64,000 nucleotides of DNA from Branchiostoma floridae. Taxonomy: Eukaryota > Chordata > Leptocardii > Amphioxiformes > Branchiostomatidae. The notes beneath the pieces were generated by a model that saw nothing but the letters and a program-made list of their open reading frames with translations, was not told where the DNA came from and did no database searches. The position numbers and the translations under genes were made by a program. Within the stretch, counting starts at the first letter, position 1, and the number at the start of each line of letters is the position of its first letter. The stretch covers positions 24,443,675 to 24,507,674 of the forward strand of contig NC_049981.1 of the NCBI RefSeq assembly GCF_000003815.2, given 5' to 3'. Shown piece by piece: positions 6,701 through 26,600 of the stretch.

Positions 6701-9700
6701 CAATTTGAGCTTTTTATGAATAAATAAAGGTTCAAACTTTTGTCTTAATCCAAACGCTATTATCAATAGTAGTAATAGTGATGATGATGGCTGTTACTTC
6801 GTATCCGAAGATCAGTGGGCAGGGTGGGTTTGAGCGACCCATCCGCCTGGCTTGCACGTGACTTTTTAAGGTGAAGGAGGGGTGTGCACTTCCTTCTCCA
6901 CCCTCTCGTCTACTGGTGCACTTAGTCCCACAGGGACAGAACTATATGCCACGTAAGACGGCCCCAGCAGATGCAGGTTTATTATTTGGAGTTTCCGTCT
7001 CCTAGGAGGACTTCCGACCAAGGATGCAAGGGGTTCCTCCTACCCCTGACTCGTGTATAGCGGGTGCGTCATGCCCGAACATGCCCCTAAGGCCAACCAC
7101 TGCCACAAAGGCCTGTCACTGCCACCAGCCGCAGCTAGGTACTCATATACACCTGAGTTAGGTGAGGAAAGTCGTGTAACGTGCCTTTCCCAAGGGCACA
7201 AGATCGGTGACACGGCAGACGGACCTGTCGGGCTGGAGCCCAACGCGCTGCCGATTGCCCCACGCGATCCCACGCGATTACACAATCTATATATTTATGC
7301 ACTGGTATATGTTATGTACACAAAGTAGTTTCTGGTTAAAGTTAGGAAAATATACAATACCATATTACAAATGCTATTGGCAAGTTCTTACCAGTGGTGT
7401 AACACATCATTGATCAGGTAGATGAGATGCAGTTTCAGCTCAAATGAAGAACTTTTGCCCAGGATGCGACACAACAGATACTGGGATATGCACTTGCAGT
7501 GGTCTGCTGACTTGGATGCATTGAAGATCCAACCCTTACCTGCCTAAAATATATAGACCAATTATAGGCAACAATTACAAATGAACTGTAAAAATGATAA
7601 GATATTCAAATAATTTCAACAATGCTCAGTAAGTTTCAGTAGCATCAGCAAAAAAAGATTAGGAATACAAAAAAAGAAAATGATTTTACAAAACCTTAAG
7701 AAATAGCCTGTATAGAAAGGATATAGGCTAGCATTTGAATGACTGAAGAATGACTTAATACATCACTAAAGGCTTGCAAATGACTTACTGAGATGGCATC
7801 CTTGGTGCACTGTTCAATGATGGGCTGAACAACCTTGTCAAACTCGGACAGATCCAGCTCAGCCAGTTTGGCCAGGTTCTGGGTCGACACTTCCCGAGCT
7901 TGCTGAATGGCTGTGTCAATTTGTTCCTGTCAGAAAAATTTAAAAAACAGCATGAATTATATTTGATTATCTTGTCACCAATCTACATCAAGCCCTGATT
8001 GTTATTGGCGACACAGCTACATTAAATTTGTACTCTGTACAAAAAACTTAAATATAAACATACCCCCGGTAAGCATGGGTTTATGAAGAAGCAAGCTGCA
8101 CAAAATAATTGGTCAACAATACACACATGTACTATGTATAAGAGATAGTCTGTGTTTACCTTTATAAAGCAGTCAATGATTGATGAAAATTCTATTATCT
8201 GTGTACATTCGCGACTAATGAATCTCTTCAAAAATAGTCTGTGTCAGTTTGAATTCACTTTCCTCACTCAGTGTTTTATTCAGTGGTTATACATTATAAG
8301 TCACTGGACAGGCTTTATGTCATAACTAATCCTTAGACCTTACTATGCAACATGGGAAGATGATTTCTTTTATATTCATCTTTCCTTGGAAATGTTGGAA
8401 CAGTGCCAGCCTAGGACAAAAGAATATTACCATCAAATGAACAAAAATGCAGTGGCTACCTGCTATACAAATATAGGTTTTAGTATTTTTGAAACTGTGA
8501 ATGTGGTTTGGGAGGGTTAGGGTTAGGGTTAGAGTTTGCAGTTCAGCTGTACCATACAGAGATGTGTATTGTTGGTCATTAGTGAACGTCAGCAGTACTG
8601 TACCTGTTGTTGTGCCATGAGGACCTGGTGTTGTTTCATGAGGTTAGAGTTGGACTGGTTGATCTGAGGTGGCTGTGTAGTTAGTTAGTTAGTTAGTTAG
8701 TGAATGTTCAGCAGTACTGTACCTGTTGTGGTGCCATGAGGACCTGGTGTTGTTTCATGAGGTTAGAGTTGGACTGGTTGATCTGTGGTGGCTGTGTAGT
8801 TAGTTAGTTAGTTAGTTAATGAATGTCAGCAGTACTGTACCTGTTGTTGTGCCATGAGGACCTGGTGTTGTTTCATGAGGTTAGAGTTGGACTGGTTGAT
8901 CTGTGGTGGCTGCGTAGTTATAATTAGTTAGTTAGTTAGTGAGTGAATATTCAGCAGTACTGTACCTGTTGTTGTGCCATGAGGACCTGGTGTTGTTTCA
9001 TGATGTTAGAGTTGGACTGGTTGATCTGTGGTGGCTGTGTAGTTAGTTAGTTAGTTAGTTAGTGAATGTTCAGCAGTACTGTACCTGTTGTTGTGCCATG
9101 AGGACCTGGTGTTGTTTCATGAGGTTAGAGTTGGACTGGTTGATCTGTGGTGGCTGTGTAATTAGTTAGTTAGTTAGTTAATGAATGTCAGCAGTACTGT
9201 ACCTGTTGTTGTGCCATGAGGACCTGGTGTTGTTTCATGAGGTTAGAGTTGGACTGGTTGATCTGCTCCTGTACGTGGGGAGGGATCTGAGGAGGTCCCT
9301 GTGGCGGGATCTGCTGAGGCTGTGGTGCAGACTGCCAGGGTGCAGACTGGATAGCTTGCTGGGTCACTGCCTCCTGGATTATGGCCTGCTGCTGGGCCAG
9401 CTTCTGTTTCTGTTGGTTCAGGACTGGAAGAAAATAAAAACAATTCACCATATACTATAAATATGAAAGTACACATCAAGTGTCTGAAAGCCGTAGGGGT
9501 TTGTGGGTAGCTTTAATAACAAATCTTCATTCTCGTAGCCTACACCTACTAACTGCTGCATAAGCCATAAGTCCATGACAGCGAGACATTGTGCAACACA
9601 GGCTAAAAAGAAGCCACTAAGGGCAACAGATTGTTCATCCACAGTATTTTGCACAAGGTATATATACTTAGACTAAGTTATAGCGTGGAACTCATCCCTC

Positions 9701-10587
9701 TCCTTTTGCCACATACACCTTTTTACATCCAAGTGAAGTCATGTAAGGTGCCTTTCCTAAGGAAACATTATCTAGCCAAGAATTAAATGCATATCCTCCA
9801 TCAATCCATTTTTCAGTTGATGTAGACAGTTTCCCTACTTACTTTGCTGCTCTGTTGTGACCTTGTATTGATAGTAGTTGTAGAACTCCCCGCCAAACAG
9901 GAACTTAAACTTGGGGTTGTCTTTCTGCTTCTGCTTGGTCATCTTCTCAAATTCAGGTCCGTTTCTGGCCACAAAGTTGGCCAGTTTATCAATAATGTTC
10001 CGCAACTCAGGATCTGTGGAAACATAGATAGCTCTGTAGTTCTGGAAAAGTTGGTACACTTACTAGAAACTTTAGTAGAAAGGTAAACATTTGCAAGCAA
10101 ACATACATAATTTTCATCTTCAAATGGTCTATAGATTAATCACCTGATTGTTTAGCTTAACCAACCGATCATGTACAACTATAAAGCCCTGGACAACCCT
10201 CACAAAGCAACTATCACAGTCAGCTGATCACAGAAACTCTAGTCTAAGGATCGGTTCCATGGAGTAAAAACTCCTTGTCCTACCCAACCAACAGTGTCTA
10301 CACTACTCTACTCAAACTACTTCTCTGATCATTCTAATTATTCAGAGTGGATACAAAGATATCACATAAAAATATTATCATGGACGAGTTTTCAGTGCAT
10401 CAAAGCCGATTCCAAGTAAGCCAAATGACCTAATCCACCAAACAAAATAGGGGGAGACACGCGCGTTGCCCCCCTCCCCACCTTTACTTGTAAAACTTGG
10501 TTTTAAAAACCGGTTAAGGTATTGCAGCTACACAGAAATGCTTAACATCTGTTCTTACGAACCTTCGGGTGGCTTTGGGAGATCCAT
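728..10587 (-). CDS. CHERP: CHERP, SR-related splicing factor (3' part missing)
   Basis: This is calcium homeostasis endoplasmic reticulum protein, a nuclear splicing factor associated with the U2 snRNP/U2AF-type SURP family. Exons, 5' to 3' on the minus strand: 10587-10563, 10013-9843, 9423-9203, 7926-7789, 7543-7392, 6449-6419, 5822-5742, 5349-5299, 4558-4411, 3960-3841, 3488-3375, 2888-2602, 2234-2101, 1604-1512, 1088-957, 778-728. Phases agree at every junction and give about 649 codons. Domains in order: SURP module (LRNIIDKLANFVARNGPEFE, then FLFGGEFYNYYQYK), a Gln-rich linker, a CID-like domain (DLSEFDKVVQPIIEQCTKDA, LHLIYLINDVLHHC, LLALWEKNNYF), a Gln-rich coiled segment (QTIIQQQFQQLQNQHEEFV), a long Pro-rich region, the conserved LPPPMPPSDRLLAAVEAFY block, then EGWEHNGLYEFFKAKRR and RS repeats. 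The start is the ATG at 10587, which gives MDLPKPPED before the SURP module. The human protein continues to a G-patch, which is off the left edge. Exon 3 has extra downstream mini-exon copies, listed separately. Confidence 0.95.
1068..1445. repeat. 107 bp tandem repeat including a CHERP acceptor site
   Basis: The 5' edge of the RS exon (ending at 1088) and its flanking intron are repeated in tandem with a period of 107 bp; the motif GAAAAACATATCTGGATCTC starts at 1174, 1281 and 1388. Each copy keeps a minus-strand acceptor-like sequence (CTTGTAG followed by GTTGAGATCCAGAT). A reading frame stays open from about 1213 through the copy into the RS exon frame, so use of an upstream copied acceptor would add an in-frame N-terminal extension to that exon. 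Confidence 0.75.
1880..2010. repeat. Interspersed repeat, copy 1
   Basis: A stretch with GGGCACTTGACTTTGG, then a GTGGAAGGAGAGGG-type block and a CCTGGACACAGTGTATTACA-type block, resembles 15560-15660 in the same order and orientation. It is a degenerate dispersed element in a CHERP intron, class unknown. Confidence 0.5.
6780..7275. repeat. GC-rich interspersed element inside a CHERP intron
   Basis: This block is sharply more GC-rich than the surrounding AT-rich intron and has no sustained coding potential. Its segment GTGCCTTTCCCAAGGGCACA near 7180-7200 recurs in degraded form near 9750 (AGGTGCCTTTCCTAAGG). This looks like an old transposable-element fragment; I cannot assign a class. Confidence 0.45.
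8513..8534. repeat. Short interstitial TTAGGG run
   Basis: Three successive GGGTTA units lie in a CHERP intron just beyond the mini-exon array. They match the metazoan telomere repeat but are too few to mean more than a simple repeat. Confidence 0.6.
8604..9262 (-). repeat. CHERP: CHERP mini-exon/mini-intron tandem array (six 60 bp exon copies)
   Basis: The last 60 bp of CHERP exon 3 (9203-9262) is repeated at 9085-9144, 8966-9025, 8841-8900, 8723-8782 and 8604-8663 (periods 118-125 bp). Read on the minus strand, each copy starts after an acceptor ending CCACCACAG (CCACCTCAG in the last) and ends at CAG followed by a GTACAGTACTGCTG donor. The spacers are 58, 59, 65, 58 and 59 bp and contain runs of CTAAC, a good branch-point sequence. 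Each 60 bp copy is phase 0 at both ends, has no stop and encodes 20 residues beginning INQSNSNLMKQHQVLMA. Two copies carry one amino-acid change each (Leu to Ile, Gln to Pro). Whether zero to five copies are spliced in cannot be told from sequence. Confidence 0.9.
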
Positions 10588-12309: not shown

Positions 12310-15300
12310 ATGGCAGAGGTCCAGCGACATGATGGAAACGGCATAGTCCTGTTGTCAATGAAGGAATCGGGCGGAGAAATGGCGCAAGTGACTCCGAAGG
12401 ACACCAACGGCGGCGTGGACGGAGCGAACGGCGAGGTACCGCCCAGCAGCACCAGCCCCACATGGCTCAGTCGCTCGGGCTCAGGGAAGAGGCGTGACCG
12501 AGGAATAACCCTCACATGTCACGGTGTCGGCTACGAGGTCGACGTGAAAGCCAGAGCGTGTGCTAAGGCTGTAAAGAAACAGATTCTACAAAATATCAAG
12601 TGAGTGTCATTGCTCATTAATTCGTAACAGATGGGAAATTTCCCATTGTTGTTTTCCCATGCGGACATCCGATGCACGGGGCATAAATTATGTCCGAAGG
12701 TAACGCAGAAAATATCTTAATCTCATTGTTTTGATTGTTGACATTACAAATGTGTCATTAGACTGTCTAGATTTACACGAGAAACGTTGAAGATAATCCC
12801 TACATTTCATCACTGTCATTATTAGCTTGAGGTGAAATAAAACATGTGTGTCAACTTAAACATTGTCAATAAATAATGGAGCTTTTGGTATGGCAACGTG
12901 TTCTTTGTAGCCCAAATATGTCTACGAAGAACTGAAACGTAGACACGTCGTGTGCTAATATTATAATAGCTCAGCGTGTGAAATTCCTTCAGCTTTCATC
13001 AAGAAAAAATCACATGCATGGTTTTCAACAGACAATTAGAATTGATCATGCTTATGTAAATGTAACATAATAGCTTGCAGCACATGCAGGGCCTCGTGAT
13101 GCAATCACAACAATGCTACTTTTATATGGAAGTTAACTGTTTGGAACTGACTTGTCAAGAGTTGACATTGTTCTAGGTTTAAAAGAAAAAGACTTGGCTA
13201 TTGTCTTTTCATATTTTTCAGAAACAGTATATTTTAAATTAAAGCAGCACTTCTGCAGTGGTGATCATTGGTACCTTGTGGTTGACCTAGATTCTTAGGT
13301 TCTGGGCTGGGTTTGAATCCTGGTACAGTACTACTAGGTCATAATGTTCCTCATATGGGAAAAATGCATTGCACAATTCATTTAACAAGTTATATATAAT
13401 GATACAGGTGAAAATGGGTATCTTTAGCCTTGGTTCAGGATATAAAGCAGTGTTTAAGGAGAGCCACACCTTAAACATATTTAAGAACAAACCATATTAT
13501 CAGCCAGAGGTCTTTAATACATGCATCAGCTGGTGCTTAATGGTGTACAAAACTCAATCGTCTTACAACTTAAAGTGATGTACCAGAGATGGCAACAAAC
13601 ATTTTTAGAAAAAGTGAATCTTATCAATCTAACCCATTATTGCAAGGGGCCAGTCTACATCTCCTAAACAAATTGCATTTTACCCTTTGTATGTTTGCTT
13701 ATACTCCATGTGCAAACATAAGGTACACAACAGCTCTGAAATGTAAATGTAAATGTTCACTTGTGTAAACAGTTCTCTATAATTGATCCTCTGGTTAGTG
13801 TACCTTACATTCATAAGTAAAAATATGATGTTATGTCCAGAGTTACTCAGTTATTCTATCAAAACATACATTAGAATAATTGCAATACAATTTAATGTTA
13901 ATGTTTTACACCTCAGAGAACGTAGCCTGGTAACCATTGGAAGGTCTTTGCTACCTCTATGGTGCTGGGACATTAGCCGGCGGCCCTGTTCGTTTAAGTG
14001 CACATGGGGGAGTTTTTATGGTGTTGGGTTTTAACCGTTACTGCGATGTGCTCCCGTGAAAACTCAAAAGGCCAGCTAAAAGCTTCTGGTGACGAAATCT
14101 CAAAAGACCAGCTAAAATCAAACATGCTGAGAGACACAGGCAGCCAGAGAAGAATGGTGACGAGGTTACAGAGAATAAGAATAAAAGATACAGTCATGAT
14201 GTAATGTATTACTATTAGTATTTGTTATCTTAGAATACACATGTAGTCCTGGTCCATTTCTATCTAAAGTCTGAAGTAGTATTAACAGTTAGTTATATGG
14301 CATTTATTAGACAAGTTTACTTTGAATAAATAGTAAATGTGGGTGGCTTGACATATTTGTAAGAATATCATGTAAAGCCACTTAATTTATTAAATGATAA
14401 TATTTATAGGAACACTTATACTTTGGAAGCGTGTCAAGTTTTGATAGTAATCATGGGTTTATGCACTAGTCATTCTAAAAAGATATGTGTTTACATTTCT
14501 GTACTTACCTGTCTGTGATGTTTATACTGACTGTGTACTGCTTATGTTACAGTGGCATCTTTAAGCCAGGTATGAATGCCATCATGGGGCCCACAGGCGG
14601 AGGCAAAACAACGTAAGTCTCCTGGCTTTGTGTCAGAAATGTCACCATACAATGGTCTGTATAACTTAACGGTACATAATCCTCTACTCTAGTCACGGTC
14701 ACTGTCTTTCACTGTCTCACCCCTGTGAAGTAGAGATTATGTTGTCAGTGGCTGTGTGTCCATGCGTGTTACAAGCATGGACTCCTGGAGGTATCACTGG
14801 ACACACGGCAATGGAGGTATCACTTCTGTCTTCAGAAATAAAGCAAAATTATCTTTATGACATGCCAATTGATTTTTTTGGTACTCATACTGTGATTTAC
14901 ATTTCAAAGAAAAACTTCACAAAATGACAAGGTGAAAATATTTGTTTGGAGAAGGAAACTTTACTCTGGCTGTTACTCTGAAGTGTTTTTCTATAGAATA
15001 GATAGATCATGGTGGTAGAAGAAGGATGGACGCTGTCTTCCAATTCTGTGCCCCAAACACAGGGAACAGCAACCCACTGACACTGTGGCCTCAAAAATTC
15101 TATATAAGTTTATTATAACTACATATGTTGCCTTTACCTTTGAAAGATAAGACACTCAAAGTCATCAACAAGTTGTTGGTTAACACTACCTGTTACAGCT
15201 TACTTGATGTCCTGGCTGCAAGGAAAGAGCCTGAAGGCCTGTCAGGAGTGGTCCTTGCTGATGGAGGACCTCTACCCAACAACTTCAAGTGTATGACAGG

Positions 15301-18300
15301 CTATGTGGTGCAGGTGAGTTTGATAACTATATTCCAAACTGTTCGACAGGTTTCCTTTCATGTGAGTGGAATAGACCAGTCCTGGCCGACCATCAGAACT
15401 AGGAGTTCAGCTATAAGAAAATTAGTGGTGCTATTAGTGGTCTGACCAATGACTGCATTTGATTTGAGTGGTGAGGCTCTCACTGAGAGGTCATTAATTT
15501 TATTTCAGGCGTTCCTAGATTAATATGTGTAAAAGTAATACCCAATGTGTAAAGGTGGGCACCTGACTTTGATATGGTAGGTAAAGGGCAGTGAAAGGAG
15601 AGGGGTGGGCCTTTCCTGCCTTAGACACAATGGATTAAATAAACCACTACCCCCATGCAGGGTAACCTTATCTTGACTTATCTCAAGTTTATGTGTATTT
15701 GCATAAACACTCTTTGTGCTGATTGTTGTGTTTGTTTTCAGGATGATATCATTATGGGCACCCTGACAGTCCGTGAAAACTTGGAGTTCTCCGCCGCCCT
15801 GCGCTTACCCACATCTATCTCTCACAAGGAGAAGAAGGAGAGAGTCCGACAGGTGTTGGTAGAGTTGGGGCTGACACAGTGTGCAGAGACCAAGGTGTGT
15901 TTTGAGCATCAAGATGTCTTTAAGGTTTCTGCAAAATTTATGCAATCTTTTTCTAACATGTATCAGCTTTAATGTATGCAGCAGAATTGCCTTTTTTTCT
16001 TGCATTGTCCTTTTGTAATATGGAAAATGCAATAAGTTATTTAACATTTTCAATTTCAATGATTCTGTCCTTAGGTGGGAACAGAAATGATCCGCGGGGT
16101 GTCGGGCGGAGAGCGTAAACGGACCAACATCGGAATGGAACTTATCACAGCTCCGCCTGTCTTGTTCCTGGATGAACCAACCACAGGCCTGGACGCCAGC
16201 ACAGCAAACGTGGTCATGATGCTTCTGCAAAGGTGGGTTCGGAATGTAGAATTCAGATTTCAGTTATTACTTCAATGGGTGGTTTGGTGAGTGAGTGAGT
16301 GAGTGAGTGAGCTAGTAAGTGAGAGTGAGTGTGAGTGAGTGAGTGAGTGAGTGAGCGAGGGAGTGAGTGAGTGGGTGAGTGAGTGAGTGAGTGAGTGAGA
16401 GTGAGAGCAAAAAATGGTTGTGTCAAAAGGCAAATGTATTGTGCTTAACTGTGCTAAGCAGTCAGTACCACTACTATTGTATGTCAGAACTAAGGGAAAA
16501 TAACCAAATATGCAATGTTTTACAGGCTTTCACAGAGAGGCAAGACAATCATCTTTTCCATCCACCAGCCACGATTCTCCATCTTCCGACTCTTTGATTC
16601 CCTCATGCTGCTGGCCAATGGGGAAGTTGTGTACCATGGTGCATCTGGTCAGGCTTTGGATTACTTCCAGTCCATCGGTGAGTCTGAAATGTGACAGTTA
16701 GACAAGCAAGGCCACTGCCTCAGTCCTTAGAATAGTTTCGAGCATATAGACCCATTTGAACTCTCCTGAACTTAGTTGAGAGATTTGAGAGTGTTCATCT
16801 GTTTGCTTAAACCTGCCAAGTCCAGATGTAGCAGTCAGAGCTGTATCCCTTAATCTCCAAGTAGATGGTAGATGATAGTGTGTTTGGCTACATGTGAGTG
16901 AGTGAGTGAGTGAGTGAGTGAGTGAGTGAGTGAGTGAGTGAGTGAGTGAGTGAGTGAGTGAGTGAGTGAGTGAGTGAGTGAGTGAGTGAGTGAGTGAGTG
17001 AGTGAGTGAGTGAGTGAGTGAGTGAGTGAGTGAGTGAGTGAGTGAGTGAGTGAGTGAGTGAGTGAGTGAGTGAGTGAGTGAGTGAGTGAGTGAGTGAGTG
17101 AGTGAGTGAGTGAGTGAGCGAGCCAGAATATTCACGGATATATTGTGTTGGCAAGGATGCCGTATAATCTGGCCCACTATGTCTGTTCTACACAATTCAG
17201 ACAGGGAAAAGAACCCATCAGGACCCGTTGAAACTGGCTGATGTTTGCAGAGAAGTGATCCAAGCTCTTTCTTTGCCTTGCCTTTCCCTGTAGTTGATAG
17301 CTATAGTAAAGTACTAGTACCAAAGAACTGACTTGCATGTAAGTAGGGAGAAGGATGAATATTAATGAATTCAACATAAATGAAATCCCTTCTTAAACTT
17401 AAAGGTTGGTCAGGCATGCAGTTCCCATTTTAGTTTGCAATTATGATAGACCACCCCCCTCCCCTACTCCTTAAGTGTTTTTCATGTTTTTAAATAAATT
17501 TCTAAATACATTTTTGAATATAGTGAGTTTATTGCTATTGTTGTAGAAAAATAGGAAAAGAAACAGCCAGGTTTATTTGGTAGATTAGAGCTAGGAAAAG
17601 AGCAACTACCTTTCATCATCAATTTGCTACTAATTGTCGTTCAACGTATTAAGCAAATTGCTTACCTCGAATTTTCAGTAATTGCACATGATTCCATTAA
17701 CCCTCTTCAGGAGTGGTGATTCAAGCACAGAGTGGTGATTCAATATCATTACTCTTCAGGAGTGGTGATTCAATTACTCTGAGCTCGAGCCAAGTGTCCC
17801 TAAAGTTACGTGCTCAGAGTAATTGAACATCCACAGATGAGCTTCCATGTTGCTACATGCATTTGTTTGTTTTTTTGTTCCTGTGCGCCCCCAGGCCATG
17901 AATGTGAACTCCACAACAACCCTGCTGACTTCTTCCTGGATGTGATCAATGGTGACTCCACTGCTGTGGCAGCCGTCATGCAGGACATTGAGAAGGAGGA
18001 AAAAATGGAAGGTAAAGACGCCCTTTCTGAAAAATACTATTTCTTCCAAATGTTTGAATGATTAGATAGACATAGGTGTCAAAACTGCCTAAAAAGACTA
18101 CTCAGGGGACTGACAAATGGTCTATGTGCACCTGTCAGGTGGTCCTAAGACTTTTAATGATTGTGTCAATGGAAAAAAAGATCCCCCAAATGTTGTCACA
18201 TTGGCCAGATGAGATAGTCTTTCATGAGTGGGGTTGTGGTCACTTGTACAGGGTTGACTGAAACATGTATGTGTGTTACGCATTACGATGGATTTGACCT

Positions 18301-21300
18301 GCCTAAATTAAAAGTTGAAATGATACATTGGCAGATAGAATGTGTACCTCGAGAACACAGTATAGCATTGTATGATTGTTATTTTGAGCCAAATGACAAA
18401 GAAGAACAGTATCTAACTAAGATATAGCAGTACCCAAAGTACTGGAATGCACACTGTCATGCAGACTGAGTTTTTATGTCCTTTTTTTTCTGTAGAACTT
18501 TCAGTAGAAGTACTGAATGAAAACAACAAGAAGGACATTGCCAACAGTGAAAATGATGGTGCCTTGTTGAGCCAACAATACACTAAATCAAGGTACTACC
18601 AGGAAACCATGTCTCAGTTAGAGCCCCTGGTGGAAAAGCAGGACACGCTGGGAACTAAGTACACCAAACAAGAAGTCAGTTACAGAACCAGTTTCTTACA
18701 CCAGGTATGTTAACCTGCAATTTCTTTGTGTTCTGCCAGAGGGCACTGCTCTACTATCTCTTTGAAAATACCACACTTCTCACTTCTACTATTTGTGGGA
18801 AGTCATTCTATCAAATTACAACATTTTTTCCCTGAATTTTTCCCTTTCTCCCATCCATCAACTTAAAGCTGTTTTAAGAACAAATTATGCACAAAGGATG
18901 TGTTATAACAATCAAACTTTAACTTAAACAGGTGGACAAATTATAATGACTTTATGTCATCTTTTTTTTTTTTTTTTTCAGTGCAAAGTTGTCATCAAAA
19001 GGACTCTGAAGAACTTGGTGCGTAACCCACAAGCATCAGTTGCCCAGGTTTGTCCAGGTTTTCTTCTGAAATTACAATTAAAATATTTAATTCAAAACTC
19101 CTGCTATGGCCTTGGAATTTACTTGCATTGTACAAAGGTTTTGGTAACATCAACTCTCATAATTCCACCAGGTGCTATAATACCACAACTTAAAAACAGT
19201 GTTATAGAAGCCTTCTCAAGATTGTCTTGAACTGTTCAGGCTGAACACTTAGATATCTGAAGTGTATATACTTCAGTTGCAGGGCTACTGATATGATACT
19301 ATGTCTTCAAACCAATTACTTGTGGAATCCGATAAAATCATGAGAGTTGATGTTTTACCTTCTGCTTTTTTGTCTCACTGGCAAATTATGACTGGTTCTA
19401 TTTCCTGCCGCTAGGAGGTGCTACAGTGAGAAAACTGCAGTTCCACATGCTTGTTTCATGGATCTGATGATGACAGATTTTCTGATCCATACAGCATCCT
19501 TTCATTTGATCAGACTATTTATTTACCAACCTAAATTCAGGTTGTGTTCACTATCTACAAATGTAATGTATTTGAGATTCCTCAGCTGTGTTGATATGAC
19601 ATTTTTGATTGTGAAGTCTAAGTATGGTTAATGTTGAAATGTGTGTATCATTGCTGTTCTAGGTAATGTTGAACATCATCTTTGCCTTGATCATCGGCAT
19701 CATCTACCTACAGATAGATGACAGTGCCTCCACTGGTGTCCAGAACAGGTTAGTGTAGCACTGCGTAGATCTAGATCTAGTAACCTTCCTCCTCACATGT
19801 TGTTTTATTTACATATAGTTGTTGTTTTACACCAGTCCAACATAGATTTTTAAGTATTCTAAATGTACATATTGATTTTTTTCAGACGTCTTTGTGGGGT
19901 CTGACATTTGTAATATGGTTTACTTTTCTAAGAATTTTTAGTAGGTAGCTCCTCTTAGGACAGAACGCTAAGCCATGTGCTCCTCTGTTTGTTGTACTTG
20001 TCAAAACAGCTAGGTGAATACTGCAGTACAATTAACCTGTTACAGTACTCCATTAACTGTGTACACAGAGCATCTGTCTTCTCTGTAATCAGTGGAAGAA
20101 TTAAGCTCTTCAATGAGCTGAGCTGGTTCTGAAGATCACTTTTTTCTTCTCACTTTCACATTTCAAATCGTCCCTTTATTGTCATCATCACAGTTATTCT
20201 CAGGTACATGTATGTAATGCATTACTGTACACAGCACTTAGGTAGCCTCTTACATGAAAATCTTCTCTTCATGTAGAACTGGTGTTTTCTTTTTCCTGGC
20301 AACCAACATGATGTTCGGCAGTTTGTCTGCTGTGGATCTCTTTGCCAGAGAAAGGCAAATCTTTATGTAAGTATTTTTGATATCTTACTCTTCAAAGAAC
20401 CTTGCCAAAATGTTGTGCCTTTTGTGTTTTCAGGACTGGTGTGATCTTTTTCCTTGCAACAAATATGGTCTTTGGCAGTACTACAGCAGTGACCATTTTT
20501 GCAAATGAAAGACCTATTTTTGTGTAAGTTTTTTTTTCATTTTTTTTCTCATTATTTTTCTTTTTAAGAATTAATAAAAAAAAATTTTTCTTTTTTTCAT
20601 TATTTTTCTTTTTGACAATTGATAATATTTTTTTCTATGTTGCACCTACATGCAAGTTATTCTGGCTGAAGTACTGTAGAAAACTGCAATCAATCCACTT
20701 GCCTTCATATTAAAGGCCACAGAACAACCGGAATCATAAAAACTACTTTGCTAACACTACTTTACATTCATACAGCTTTCATTAGTACTGAACAACAAAT
20801 TTCTTCCATTTGACAATCTCAAAATTTTATGATCTGTGTATTCCACGAGTCTCAGAGTTCTTCTTGGTACCCCACAGAAGTTCTAGGTATCCCACAAGAG
20901 ATAAGGGTATCCCATAAGAGGTCTGAGTTATGGGTATCTGTGACTCTCAGAGTTATACATTTGTAACTCAAATCAAAATTGGATCATTATAACTTGCTAG
21001 CAATAAATACCAGATTGGTTGTCTAAAAGTCTCCAAATCATACTTGTAATGTAGCTTTATATTAAAAAGATTACAATTTTCTTAATTTTGTTTGCAAAAA
21101 TTGTTGCTTCAGCCATGAGTCAGCCAGTGGTTACTACAGGGTGTCCACCTACTTCTTCTCCAAGATCTTCTGTGATGTCATCCCTATGCGACTCATCCCT
21201 GTCTCCATCTTTGGGCTCATCGCTTACTGGATGATCGGTAAGGACGAACACAAATGACAATTTGTTTCATCGTAGCATACACAGAGTCCATTAATCTTTA

Positions 21301-23682
21301 ACTGGACCATGAGGTTTAAAGTTCGAATCCTAGCTGATCTAGCCCAGCTGACATGCAAGCTACTGGAAATGGTACATTGAGCCAGGATACTCTGCTGTTT
21401 GTTTTTGTCAAAAAGAGCTATTGGAGAATTTCTTCAGTAAAGTGAACATGCATATACAGTACATGGTGTTTGTTTTCTCTGTGATGACCAATGGAAAAGT
21501 AGCTCAACGTGGACTTTATCACACTGTGTACGGCATGACATTGTATATATTTTGGGATGTCATGGTATTATCCTTCCCATATTACTAAAGACGATAAAGT
21601 TATCATTTGTTTGGTACTTTGCAAAAAGGTGTCAAATCTTTCATATTTCTGATCCCAACAAGTCTAATATTGTGATGTCTCTACAGGGTTACGACCAGAG
21701 GTTGGTGCCTTCTTCTTCTTCCTGCTGACCCTGTTCAGCACCACCATGGCAGCCTCCAGCATAGCCTTCGCCATCAGCGCCACCACACCCATCTTCCAGG
21801 TCGCACAGATCTTCATCACTCTGGCCTTCATCTTCATGCTGGTAATGTCTTAGTTTGTTTATTACCTAAAGGCTAAGAGGGTTATGTTTTGGATGCTTTT
21901 TGTCTGTGTGTGTTGTATGGATGGATATTAACTAATACTAGGATACAAGTCATGTACATGTATGTGGCAGGAGGTAGGTTTGACAATGGCCCCTTGGGGA
22001 AATTCTAATTCAATGCATGTACTGCTGCAGCAGAAATCCTGTTTTTGATATCTTGTGTTCTGGTTTGTTGTACCAATTTTCTACTAAAGGGTAACCAATG
22101 AACAACCAAACATTAGACAGTTTACCAAACTTCATAGCTATAGAAAAAAGACTTTTACATTTTGTATATATGTTCTGTTCTCTTTTAAATCTTTACTTGA
22201 TATCAATATTTTTTTTAAGTCAATTCAAATGATCATGTATAAATTATTTTGAATGTATATCTGACAAATTGTCTCCCATGTCTCTCCAGTTGATGGGAGG
22301 TTTCCTGGTAAACCTGGGCTCAGTGGGCCCCTGGATCAACTGGCTCAAGTACTTCAGTATCGTCAGATACTGCATCAATGTACGTACACATCACTGTAAA
22401 GCTATATTAAGTAAAGCACAGTTTACCTTTATCCACAGGGTAACATATATTTGTTGTGTACACCAACATGGTTTTAAGGGATACCAACTGGACGGACGGT
22501 GGTTTTAAGTTGCAATACGTTAAAAAATAATGTAGTTTGAAACTACCATCCGTGGACTTTATATCCCTCAATGCCCATTTCTGAAAGCAACGGAATATAT
22601 AGGTTAGCTCCCAGACACTGAAAAAATGTGAAAAATCGCTTTGAACAAAAATTTTTGCAAGTTTCCAAGCATTCATTCAAACAGCAACTAACATACTGTA
22701 AAAATAAACTTTAAGTGTTTTGATTTGTTGCACTCCGAAAACAATGACATGACTGTCGTCTGTTATTATATTGTATACTGCTGTACTGTACAGTTACAAC
22801 AATGCCTTCAAAAGGTAACGTAAAATCTTGAGTTTTCAGTTTGCTGTTAAATTTGTGTTATGCATTAATTTTTATTAAAAATTTTGTACCATTTAACAGG
22901 GCCTCACCATCCCCGAGTTCCGTGATCGTCAGTTCTGCGATGCTGGGAACATCACCAGTACTGCTGCACCTGTGGGGGAGCCCAACGTTGTAGGTTCTGT
23001 ATGGTAAGTACAATACAGACCTGTATTAGTGGCTACCTTTGTATAGCGACCACCTGGTCATTGTGGTCACTTTTTGTCGGCGAAGTTACCAACATTCCGC
23101 ATGGCAACATTTTTGGAAGATTTTACTTTGGCAGGTGTAGTTGAATTTTGAGACGATTGAGACAACATGGTGAGAAGGATTAGTGGGTACTGAAATCATG
23201 TGTAGCTTGCTCGTAGTCAATTTGCCAACATTTTCTCTATAGTGGTCACCTGTCTATAGTGGCCACATTTCTCCAGTCCCTTGATTTGCCACTATATCTA
23301 TATATAGACAGGTTTGACTGTACATTATATAACCTCCATTAGCCTTTATCTGCAGCTGGTTAATACATACATTCACCACTTTCAAAAACAGCATGTGTGA
23401 GAGATCTCCTCTAGTGAAGCACAGTTTAGATATGTGTATGCAATAGTACATTGATTCAAACGATATACAGTTAACATTGTAGACAGGTTTTTGATTTGTA
23501 ATAGTTGTTGACTCTTAACTCTTAACTTTTACAGTGTCTCAGGTAACACGTATATGACAGTCCAGGAAATCGACTACACTCTGTTTGGCCAGTGGAGTAA
23601 CATGCTGGGGCTGTGGGGCATCATGATCATCTGTCTGACTCTGTGTTATATCCAGCTGCGAAGGATCAAGAAACTCAAGTAG
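12310..23682 (+). CDS. ABCG2: ABCG2-type half ABC transporter
   Basis: A plasma-membrane ATP-driven exporter of the ABCG (White/BCRP) subfamily, expected to work as a dimer. Coding exons: 12310-12599, 14553-14612, 15199-15313, 15742-15894, 16075-16232, 16526-16677, 17895-18011, 18496-18704, 18982-19047, 19663-19748, 20277-20366 (or 20434-20523), 21113-21237, 21687-21840, 22290-22380, 22900-23003, 23535-23682. They sum to 2118 bp, giving 705 aa (human about 655), with all phases consistent. The nucleotide-binding domain comes first: Walker [11 protein letters not shown]-loop VVQDD, signature VSGGERKR, Walker [15 protein letters not shown] and H-loop IHQPR. Six membrane helices follow (for example [16 protein letters not shown] and [17 protein letters not shown]). 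The last external loop keeps an N-glycosylation sequon (GNITS) and two cysteines (FCDAGN and SVCVSG). A long linker at about residues 310-395 is acidic and charged. Confidence 0.95.
15560..15660. repeat. Interspersed repeat, copy 2
   Basis: Lies in ABCG2 intron 3. It repeats, in the same order and orientation, the blocks seen at 1880-2010 (GGGCACCTGACTTTG, a GTGAAAGGAGAGGGG block, a GACACAATGGATTA block and a CCACTACCCCC end). It is a degenerate element and coding-free. Confidence 0.5.
16287..16405 (+). repeat. (GAGT)n microsatellite, interrupted
   Basis: An imperfect tetranucleotide GAGT array in ABCG2 intron 5, with GAGC, GAGA and GGGT interruptions. Long open frames on the other strand here (SLTH-type repeats) are products of the repeat and not genes. 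Confidence 0.95.
16893..17122 (+). repeat. (GAGT)n microsatellite, about 57 pure units
   Basis: A nearly perfect tetranucleotide array of about 230 bp in ABCG2 intron 6, pure until a terminal GAGC. Its purity points to recent expansion. The apparent minus-strand open frames rich in SLTH repeats arise from it. Confidence 0.97.
20277..20366 (+). CDS. ABCG2: ABCG2 exon 11a (transmembrane helix 2, version a)
   Basis: A 90 bp exon between AG (20275-20276) and a GTAAGT donor. It enters in phase 2 (AG|A makes Arg) and leaves in phase 2 (AT|C makes Ile before HESASGYYR). Its 30 residues include [20 protein letters not shown]. By alignment to human ABCG2 this is the TM2 segment containing the drug-contact Asn and Phe of the T-N-x-x-F motif, both present here. 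Confidence 0.9.
20434..20523 (+). CDS. ABCG2: ABCG2 exon 11b (transmembrane helix 2, version b)
   Basis: A second 90 bp exon, 67 bp after 11a, with its own acceptor (TTTTCAG) and GTAAGT donor and identical phases. It encodes an alternative to exon 11a, including [20 protein letters not shown]: 21 of 30 residues are identical and the T-N-x-x-F motif is kept. The open frame, both splice sites and protein-level conservation despite DNA divergence argue that it is functional and probably mutually exclusive with 11a. Joining both would keep the frame but add an extra helix. Confidence 0.85.
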
Positions 23683-26600
23683 ACGCAATGGTACATTCTC
23701 AAAAGGAAAATATTTCGGAGTTGATGGAAAACATTTAGAAGAGAGCTGAAACCTTCAACTTATTCCAGCAGGCAACAGAAAGATTTGAAGCACTTCAAAT
23801 TTTTGACCGTCCTACTTCAGTTTTTTTACAGATTTCAATTGATTAATCCGCTAGGTCACATGACCTTATACAGGTATTTGATAGGTCATTTGTACCATAT
23901 TAGATTACAGTGGATTGTTAAACACACTAAATTAAATGTGCTGCTACCAGGATCCAAGTACCAAAGTTTTTTTGCAGTGAATTCAGCTTTTAGCAGGCGA
24001 CATCACAATGTCTTCTTACGTCTGCAATTTGTTATTTGAATTCTAAAGAAGACAGCAGTCAGATGGTCAATGATTAAATCTGCTTCTTGTGCTTGCACAA
24101 AGGTGACATTTTAGCGGTGTTAACACACAGGAACTTCAATTTGATTATTTTGAATTACTTGAAGGAGTGATCAAACACAAAGAAAATTGATAGTTAACAC
24201 TCATTCTTTGAATGTTAGCAAATGAATATTTATATTTCAGCCATACCATAGGTATGGTGAAATATATTGTATTCGTAATGTTTCTTTCTTTCTTTCTTTC
24301 TCCTGTCAAATCTTCAAATCGAATCAACTCCGCCATTTTTTAACCGATTGACTTGAAATTTGGCACAAAGGTAGAGTAAGCCAATACCCTCAGGTGTTTT
24401 TTTCATTTTTTTCATATCTGCCTTTAAAATGATTTTATTGAGGTTATTGTCAATTTTTATGTATATTTCGGGCTCCTGTACCCTGGTATTACAGCCGAAT
24501 GACATGAAATTTGATACAGAGGTGCCTTGATCATATGCTCACCTAGATTCAATAACAGTTTTGGCATATGGTACAACAAAATGCTTAATTTTGCGATTTT
24601 TGGCCATTTTTTGACCAAAAAAGGACATTTTTGGCCCCTGTAGCCTCGTTTTACAACCAAATGATCTGAAATTTGGTATAAAAGTGCTCTTCAATTATGT
24701 GCACATAAATTCAATAAAAGTTTTCCCATACGGTACGACAAAATGCTTAATTTTGCGACTTTTTGACCTAAAAAGGACATTTTTGGCTCCTGTAGCCTCG
24801 TTTTACAACCAAATGATCTGAAATTTGGTATAAAAGTGCCCTTCAATTATGTGCACATAAATTCAATAAAAGTTTTCCCATACGGTACAACAAAATACTT
24901 AATTTTGCGATTTTTGGCCATTTTTTGACCAAAAAAGGACATTTTTGGCTCCTGTAGCCTCGTTTTACAACCAAATGATCTGAAATTTGGTCTAAAAGTG
25001 CCCTTCAATTATGTGCACATAAATTCAATAAAAGTTTTCCCATACGGTACAACAAATGCTTAATTTTGCGATTTTATGGCCATTTTTTGACAAAATTTTG
25101 ACATTTTTGGCTCCTGTTCCCTCGATTTACAACCTAATGACCCGTAAATTGGTAAAGGGGTGCTCTAGATGTTTATTCAAATGACCCATGTATATTTTTT
25201 GGCATGGACCACTTTAAAATGATATATTTGGGGTTTTTTTGGTCATTTTTGAATGGCCAAAGGGGTCAACGACCTCAAGGCCTATTGTTGCATGAGGGAG
25301 ATGGCTGAAATATGCTGTATTTGCTCTCAAGCAAATGTCGGCCTTTCTAGTATTTAAGTAATTTTTCAATCAGCCAAGCAAAGTGAATGAGGATTATGCA
25401 ATGACCTCCATGTAGAAACAATCATGTCCAAGTCATTGTTGCACATTTTATTCTGCTCTATGCAAGGAAAATAATAAGATCATATTAGAAGGTTGTTTGT
25501 TTTGCATATGTTTCATCACTAGGAAGTTCCAAAGGCGGGTTGTTTTGTGTACTTTCATGTAAGTAAGTCACTAGTTTTTTTTATCCAGATCTTCTTTAAT
25601 TCAACTTCTCAAAGTATCATATATGGAAGTGGGTATAAAGCCATTCAGAAATAGGTTGTTAGTTCTAATATAAAACCAAATTATACTTCAGCCATTCCTT
25701 TATTCAAGAACTATGCAAATCATTATCAGGTGTGTTTTTAACAGAAAAGATGACAATAAAAAATATTTTATTTAACTGACAGGGTAAGGCATGTACTAGT
25801 GTAACTGGTATTTTCTATATAATACATGACATTGTGTAATATTTATTTAATAATAACTAATAATCTAACATATTCCCTTGCAAAGTATAGTATGCTGATA
25901 AGTTACATAATGATTATATATTTGTCTGGTAAAGTATACTATGATTTTACCATATATGGTATTAAAGCATTATTTATATTATACAGGGTAAGACTTTGGT
26001 AGTATTACATGACATTGTATACTTTGATCAAGTTTTTTAATAAGAATAGTTACAGTGCCACAATATCTCTACTTCAAATTATTTCTCAGTTCATGACTGC
26101 AAGCATTTAATTTGTATTCAAAAAACAACAGCAAAATCTGGCAGGAGTGTACATGTATATTGATACTTTTAAATCATTTGATAAACAGTTCTGAAGAACA
26201 CTGTTGGGCATTCTGGCCCTTTGTCACAAACTCGTTGCCGACCTTGACACATGGCTTCAAGATGCTGTTCAAAAGTCCCATACCATCTTCACTGAACAGA
26301 CGGCCTGCTTTCTCCGCAGCTGAAATGGGGCAATTGATAACTCATATGTATTTGGACTACGGTCAGTCAGTGACTTCTGAAACGAAAAATATATAATCCT
26401 AGGCTAGGCCAAGTAAGACATCAAAATCTAAATGACTGGACACCTTCAAAGAACAGAAGATCTTTTAGAGGACTTAACTGTTGGGCTACACTTAATACTG
26501 TTACAGTAACAATACTTCTCAGGCCCCCATATGTCAGCACAAATAGTTGTAGATAGATGTCTGGAGGTTTTGGTATTGTTTTTGACTCCAGTGTGCATAT

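Follow-up and report, generated by a model that had tools for sequence, protein, structure and literature searches.

The DNA analysed here, a 64,000-nucleotide stretch from Branchiostoma floridae that we call the window, carries an ABCG2 gene on its forward strand. At the eleventh of the gene's 16 coding-exon places there are two exons, 11A and 11B, each of which encodes the second transmembrane helix (TM2) and the start of intracellular loop 1. The features, in window positions, are:

12310-23682, + strand: ABCG2 gene, coding part, 16 coding exons per transcript (GT/AG sites and homology)
12310-12599, 14553-14612, 15199-15313, 15742-15894, 16075-16232, + strand: coding exons 1-5 (GT/AG and homology)
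16526-16677, 17895-18011, 18496-18704, 18982-19047, + strand: coding exons 6-9 (GT/AG and homology)
19663-19748, + strand: exon 10, end of TM1 and extracellular loop 1; its donor is common to 11A and 11B
20277-20366, + strand: exon 11A, TM2 and start of intracellular loop 1, canonical-like, in public isoform X1; codon 442 (Leu) at 20323-20325, codon 446 (Asp) at 20335-20337
20367-20433, + strand: intervening intron, 67 bp; branch-point candidates A20387 (in CTTAC) and A20407-20410
20434-20523, + strand: exon 11B, TM2 and start of intracellular loop 1, diverged; codon 442 (Thr) at 20480-20482, codon 446 (Thr) at 20492-20494
20530-20589, + strand: U-rich tract after the 11B donor (from +7), 37 T of 60
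21113-21237, + strand: exon 12, intracellular loop 1 and TM3; its acceptor is common to 11A and 11B
21687-21841, 22290-22379, 22900-23003, 23535-23682, + strand: coding exons 13-16 (GT/AG and homology)

The product containing 11A is 705 amino acids long and 100% identical to a Branchiostoma protein record (P0001, 'ABCG2-like isoform X1'), and this identity over all 705 residues supports the gene model independently. Its Pfam domains are PF00005 (residues 94-243), PF01061 (418-629) and PF19055, with the nucleotide-binding domain ahead of the ABC-2 membrane domain, the layout of a half-transporter. The nearest solved structures are human ABCG2 chains, at 700 bits, while ABCG5, ABCG8 and ABCG1 reach approximately 253-261 bits. 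Modelled with AlphaFold2 (mean pLDDT 78.8, pTM 0.75), the 11A protein retrieves ABCG2 chains at Foldseek ranks 1-19 (TMt 0.86-0.94); in this model exon 11 spans two helices, 465-483 and 485-503, and the Asp at human position 446 is residue 489. Exon 11 corresponds to human ABCG2 positions 427-456, where TM2 is placed at 429-449 and intracellular loop 1 at 451-465 (PMC12250437). Homology and this mapping support what the first-pass annotation had proposed, namely an ABCG2 gene in which the exon in question encodes TM2.

A tblastn search with four pieces ruled out that the window contains another ABCG2-like membrane domain. In the 513-Mb assembly the protein finds no membrane-domain match outside the ABCG2 gene at E ≤ 1e-5 (50 candidates scored), a threshold that remoter ABCG genes would escape. 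A search of a phage collection with the ABCG2 gene gave no match, which was expected and is uninformative.

The window also holds several tandem repeats. A 119-bp repeat (5.7 copies, 8579-9265) overlaps a minus-strand open reading frame at 9188-9454; a SURP-domain exon (9835-10059, minus strand) adjoins this repeat-bearing frame, and the repeat may contain copied fragments of a coding exon. Two GTGA arrays, at 16894-17122 (57 copies) and 16287-16399 (28 copies), lie in and near ABCG2 introns 5 and 6 and read as long LTHS repeats in minus-strand open frames. Downstream of the gene there is a further array at 24471-25156, with periods of approximately 152-162 and 314 bp.

Both exon 11A and exon 11B are 90 bp long, have the same phase and are bounded by an AG acceptor and a GT donor. 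A split Arg codon receives two of its bases from the upstream exon, and a split Ile/Val codon receives one from the downstream exon. The coordinates, the 90/67/90 bp lengths, the AG/GT sites and the split codons thereby confirm two adjacent 90-bp exons with matching phases around a 67-bp intron, as first annotated; the likeness then given as 21 of 30 residues comes to 21 of 29 whole codons encoding the same residue, or 22 of 31 when both split codons are counted (62 of 90 bases). Such a resemblance does not arise by chance. The two strands of the window together hold 101 open AG-90-GT segments with this phase; two of them are 11A and 11B, and the best of the 99 others matches 11A at 5 of 29 residues. 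The 11B peptide, searched against the assembly (513,431,437 bases, 431 contigs), matches only its own exon and 11A at E ≤ 10 (2 candidates scored); as DNA, the exon pair is present once. The DNA similarity of the two copies stops about 12 bases beyond the donor and is absent from the rest of the introns.

The divergence between the two exons (Nei-Gojobori with Jukes-Cantor correction) is dS 1.75 and dN 0.22, where dS is rough, being estimated from one short pair near saturation. A dS of this size rules out a recent duplication or an allele collapse as the origin of the pair. The changes fall on 14 of approximately 21 synonymous sites and 14 of approximately 72 nonsynonymous sites (Fisher p 8e-5). 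We also simulated neutral drift, with 11A as the starting point and held fixed, 11B free to change under our own substitution model, and a run counted as passing if the frame stayed open and at least 22 of 31 residues were shared. The fraction passing falls from 28% at 0.2 substitutions per site to 3.5% at 0.3 and 0.25% at 0.4, and at 0.6 and 0.87 substitutions per site it is 0 of 20,000 runs each. Simulations and Fisher test together therefore argue that 11B has been maintained for its protein-coding content: judged from its coding sequence, it is an intact and selectively constrained exon, not a decaying copy.

That 11B might nevertheless be an unused or dying copy, or an artefact of assembly, is suggested by the lack of any protein record whose representative has it among the matches listed. 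The database is collapsed at 90% identity, with P0001 standing for 6 members, and isoforms containing 11B would fall inside such a cluster too, so their absence is weak evidence either way. The near-saturated dS, the low dN, the open frame and the two intact splice sites all speak against decay; an assembly error that joined two alleles would not give a dS of 1.75, nor is there a second occurrence of the pair. We consider this alternative barely credible. Public isoform X1 contains 11A alone; its label means that at least one further isoform is predicted and does not say that 11B is used. A second Branchiostoma record (P0002, 700 amino acids, 91%), displayed under a name without an isoform label, likewise has an 11A-type exon 11, identical at 28 of its 30 residues.

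To compare the two copies with other animals we used 122 aligned non-Branchiostoma sequences, comprising 118 of the best 120 listed from 1540 protein matches and 4 of 7 from another search (P0125-P0127 were omitted before alignment). The sample is vertebrate-heavy and its rows are non-independent, with 68 distinct TM2 segments. All 122 homologues among the matches listed are nearer to 11A than to 11B over the exon-11 segment (mean 15.1 against 12.5 of 30), which makes 11A the conservative copy and 11B the diverged one. We are close to certain that the two form a real, old and constrained pair of alternative TM2 exons.

Exchanging 11A for 11B preserves the reading frame, as does keeping both exons (735 amino acids) or neither (675 amino acids). 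The reading frame therefore does not enforce exclusivity; if anything restricts each transcript to a single exon, it would be splicing, together with the failure of the other products to function. The intervening intron, at 67 bp, is the shortest of the 16, the other 15 ranging from 180 to 1953 bp. Leaving aside the adenine of the final AG, all candidate branch points for 11B are adenines 3-44 nt from the 11A donor. The best motif, CTTAC, has its adenine at nt 21, but its use is doubtful because an AG follows 9 nt on, at 30-31. The adenines at 41-44 have an ordinary spacing of 23-26 nt from the acceptor; their motifs are poor and they are nearer to the limit of approximately 50 nt. Steric interference is taken to occur below 50 bp in one source (PMC5740500) and below a limit of approximately 50 nt in another (PMC7969005). 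All candidate distances are below this limit, which comes from vertebrate work and may not be that of amphioxus. The distances are compatible with the original suggestion that so short an intron may hinder the joining of 11A to 11B.

A different possibility is that 11B is a non-exclusive cassette, sometimes added to 11A to give the 735-residue protein with a repeated TM2. The frame would be kept, and introns of 67 bp are spliced in some animals, such as flies and worms. The Pfam TMD profile fits 11B as well as it fits 11A (166.6 and 164.9 bits); the score is 163.1 with both exons and 120.7 with neither, so that keeping both exons carries no penalty in it. Against a cassette, 11B begins and ends at exactly the positions of 11A and has the same TM2 content, a tandem TM2 would be expected to turn over or displace all later helices, and the 11A donor is at most 44 nt from the branch point. 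Double inclusion thus seems improbable to us, and mutually exclusive use of 11A and 11B, as predicted from exon content and intron geometry, is the best reading and a likely one.

The donors give some indication of how the choice might be made. Scored with an approximate weight matrix, the 16 donors range from 1.0 to 8.4, with 1.4 for 11B and 3.7 for 11A, so that 11A has no strong donor either. The U-rich tract with its 37 T in 60 positions is the highest of the 16 donors; the next has 29 and 11A has 27, and among 9135 60-mers sampled from the window only 6 have at least as many T. Other known regulator motifs were listed without a control and hence left unused, while for the U-rich tract the remaining donors served as the comparison. 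A weak donor with a U-rich stretch behind it is described as the TIA-1/TIAR type, and these proteins are reported to promote U1 recruitment and to regulate the OGDH exon pair (PMC7969005). By analogy, an amphioxus TIA-1 might act at the 11B donor.

We do not rely on RNA structure as the main switch, since a 321-nt fold around the pair is only mildly stabler than shuffled sequences, 2 of 100 of which reach its stability (z -1.9). The predicted fold pairs 20249-20261, around the likely branch point of 11A, with 20516-20528, in the 11B donor region, over 13 bases; this weak pairing could hide both sites at once.

The nine residues that differ between 11A and 11B are, in human numbering, 430 F/I, 438 M/V, 442 L/T, 443 S/T, 446 D/T, 447 L/I, 450 R/N, 453 Q/P and 456 I/V. 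The drug-contact residues F431, F432, T435, N436 and F439 are present in both exons. The alignment also reproduces the T-N-x-x-F motif that the first-pass annotation had noted in both versions, with the differing residues just after it. One analysis of human ABCG2 names F431, F432, T435, N436, Q437, F439, S440 and V442 as the cavity residues of TMH2, of which F432, T435, N436, F439, S440 and V442 are contacts common to the docked substrates (PMC11957596). Among these eight only 442 (Leu/Thr) differs between the exons; position 440 is Gly in both. The earlier claim of different cavity walls accordingly shrinks to one wall residue (442), together with the gate residue 446 and a conservative change at 443, the other seven TMH2 cavity residues being the same. 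The Asp/Thr contrast at 446 lay inside the strings printed at that time but was never singled out.

Position 446 is Glu in all 122 non-Branchiostoma rows among the matches listed, and in all 68 distinct segments; it is Asp in 11A and Thr in 11B. At this column human ABCG5 aligns Asn and human ABCG8 Ser, and both are working sterol transporters. Glu446 is here a conserved residue of the sampled homologues rather than a formal defining feature of ABCG2, and both amphioxus versions, as encoded, break this rule, each differently. In the human protein E446 is termed essential and is placed at the entry gate (PMC11957596). The substitutions E446K, E446A and E446D are each reported to abolish mitoxantrone efflux; in the same source ATPase activity is near-normal for E446D and none for E446A and E446K, although its discussion instead says that the variants retain ATPase (PMC5653816). 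This cuts against a simple reading: by the human data for E446D, 11A too should fail on mitoxantrone, and therefore amphioxus must have either a cavity that makes up for the change or other substrates.

It could also be that the pair is exclusive and 11B makes little functional difference, or encodes a poor pump that lowers ABCG2 activity, which would make the exon a splicing off-switch. Thr is found at 446 in none of the 122 other homologues among the matches listed, and the loss of efflux and ATPase in human E446A and E446K suggests that Thr might inactivate the protein. Yet 11A itself carries Asp, and human E446D loses mitoxantrone efflux as well, so that the rule from the human protein cannot simply be carried over; moreover, ABCG5 and ABCG8 work with Asn and Ser at this position, and 11B is constrained as a helix. 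We regard this account as unlikely, though less so than the cassette.

The explanation we favour, and hold to be probable, is that the TM2 exon of amphioxus ABCG2 was duplicated in tandem long ago, giving two coding versions of one helix that are used singly. Joining of 11A to 11B would be hindered by a branch point for 11B within 44 nt of the 11A donor, and for this reason each mRNA would take one copy. 11B would be the regulated copy, with a donor that is weak on its exon side and followed by the U-rich tract, and could plausibly be activated by U-binding, TIA-1-like factors. As encoded, the choice of exon swaps a drug-contact residue, 442, and the entry-gate residue, 446. ABCG2 functions as a dimer with a single central cavity, and the exon chosen would therefore determine both the wall residue 442 (Leu or Thr) and, beneath the cavity, the gate residue, which is Glu in the other sampled homologues and would here be Asp or Thr. 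We infer an effect of this exchange on transport, which may alter the range of substrates admitted or the tightness of coupling between transport and ATP use, and we think it somewhat probable that 11A and 11B pumps do differ in transport. More tentatively, since the pump is a dimer, cells making both versions could possibly build three pumps from one gene, A/A, A/B and B/B, with different cavities; the gate would then be retuned by splicing, with B nearing the uncharged gate of ABCG5/ABCG8 (Asn, Ser).

In human mutagenesis E446 could not be changed, even to Asp, without loss of drug transport (PMC5653816). Asp and Thr versions kept side by side under long constraint offer a natural test of the role of residue 446, and of whether this residue is a drug-access gate peculiar to Glu-bearing pumps. 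If the favoured explanation is true, substrate range would have been widened by exon choice and not by gene copies.

The closest parallel in splicing is the pair of exons 4a and 4b of vertebrate OGDH, which are likewise tandem, with a short intervening intron and a U-rich tract, and whose branch points, like the candidate ones for 11B, lie less than approximately 50 nt from the upstream donor; in OGDH the branch points, mapped at 25-41 nt, enforce exclusion and TIA-1/TIAR regulate the choice (PMC7969005). The systems differ in that OGDH is a mitochondrial enzyme whose exons affect Ca2+ sensitivity, that its branch points and regulators are known from mapping experiments whereas the amphioxus pair is read from sequence, and that the U-rich tract lies within the intervening intron in OGDH but after the second exon in amphioxus ABCG2 (PMC7969005). 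Homologous exons are also swapped inside a folded transporter domain in human SLC25A3 and SLC39A14, which belong to carrier families unrelated to ABCG2 (PMC5740500); the terms ABCG and ABCC are absent from the main text of that source. Among the papers listed by our literature search we recognised no description of mutually exclusive exons in ABCG2, in ABCG genes or in amphioxus. Drosophila MRP, also an ABC transporter, has tandem alternative exons in its membrane domain, but it is an arthropod gene of the ABCC subfamily, the exons encode another helix and their origin is independent. Mutually exclusive tandem exons are therefore of a well-known kind, while their placement on the ABCG2 gate residue is, to our knowledge and by this search, undescribed. 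Human ABCG2 itself has the same fold, being the top Foldseek match, with TM2 lining the cavity and residue 446 below it (PMC5653816, PMC11957596). It has a single version of TM2, with Glu446, where amphioxus has Asp or Thr according to the exon chosen.
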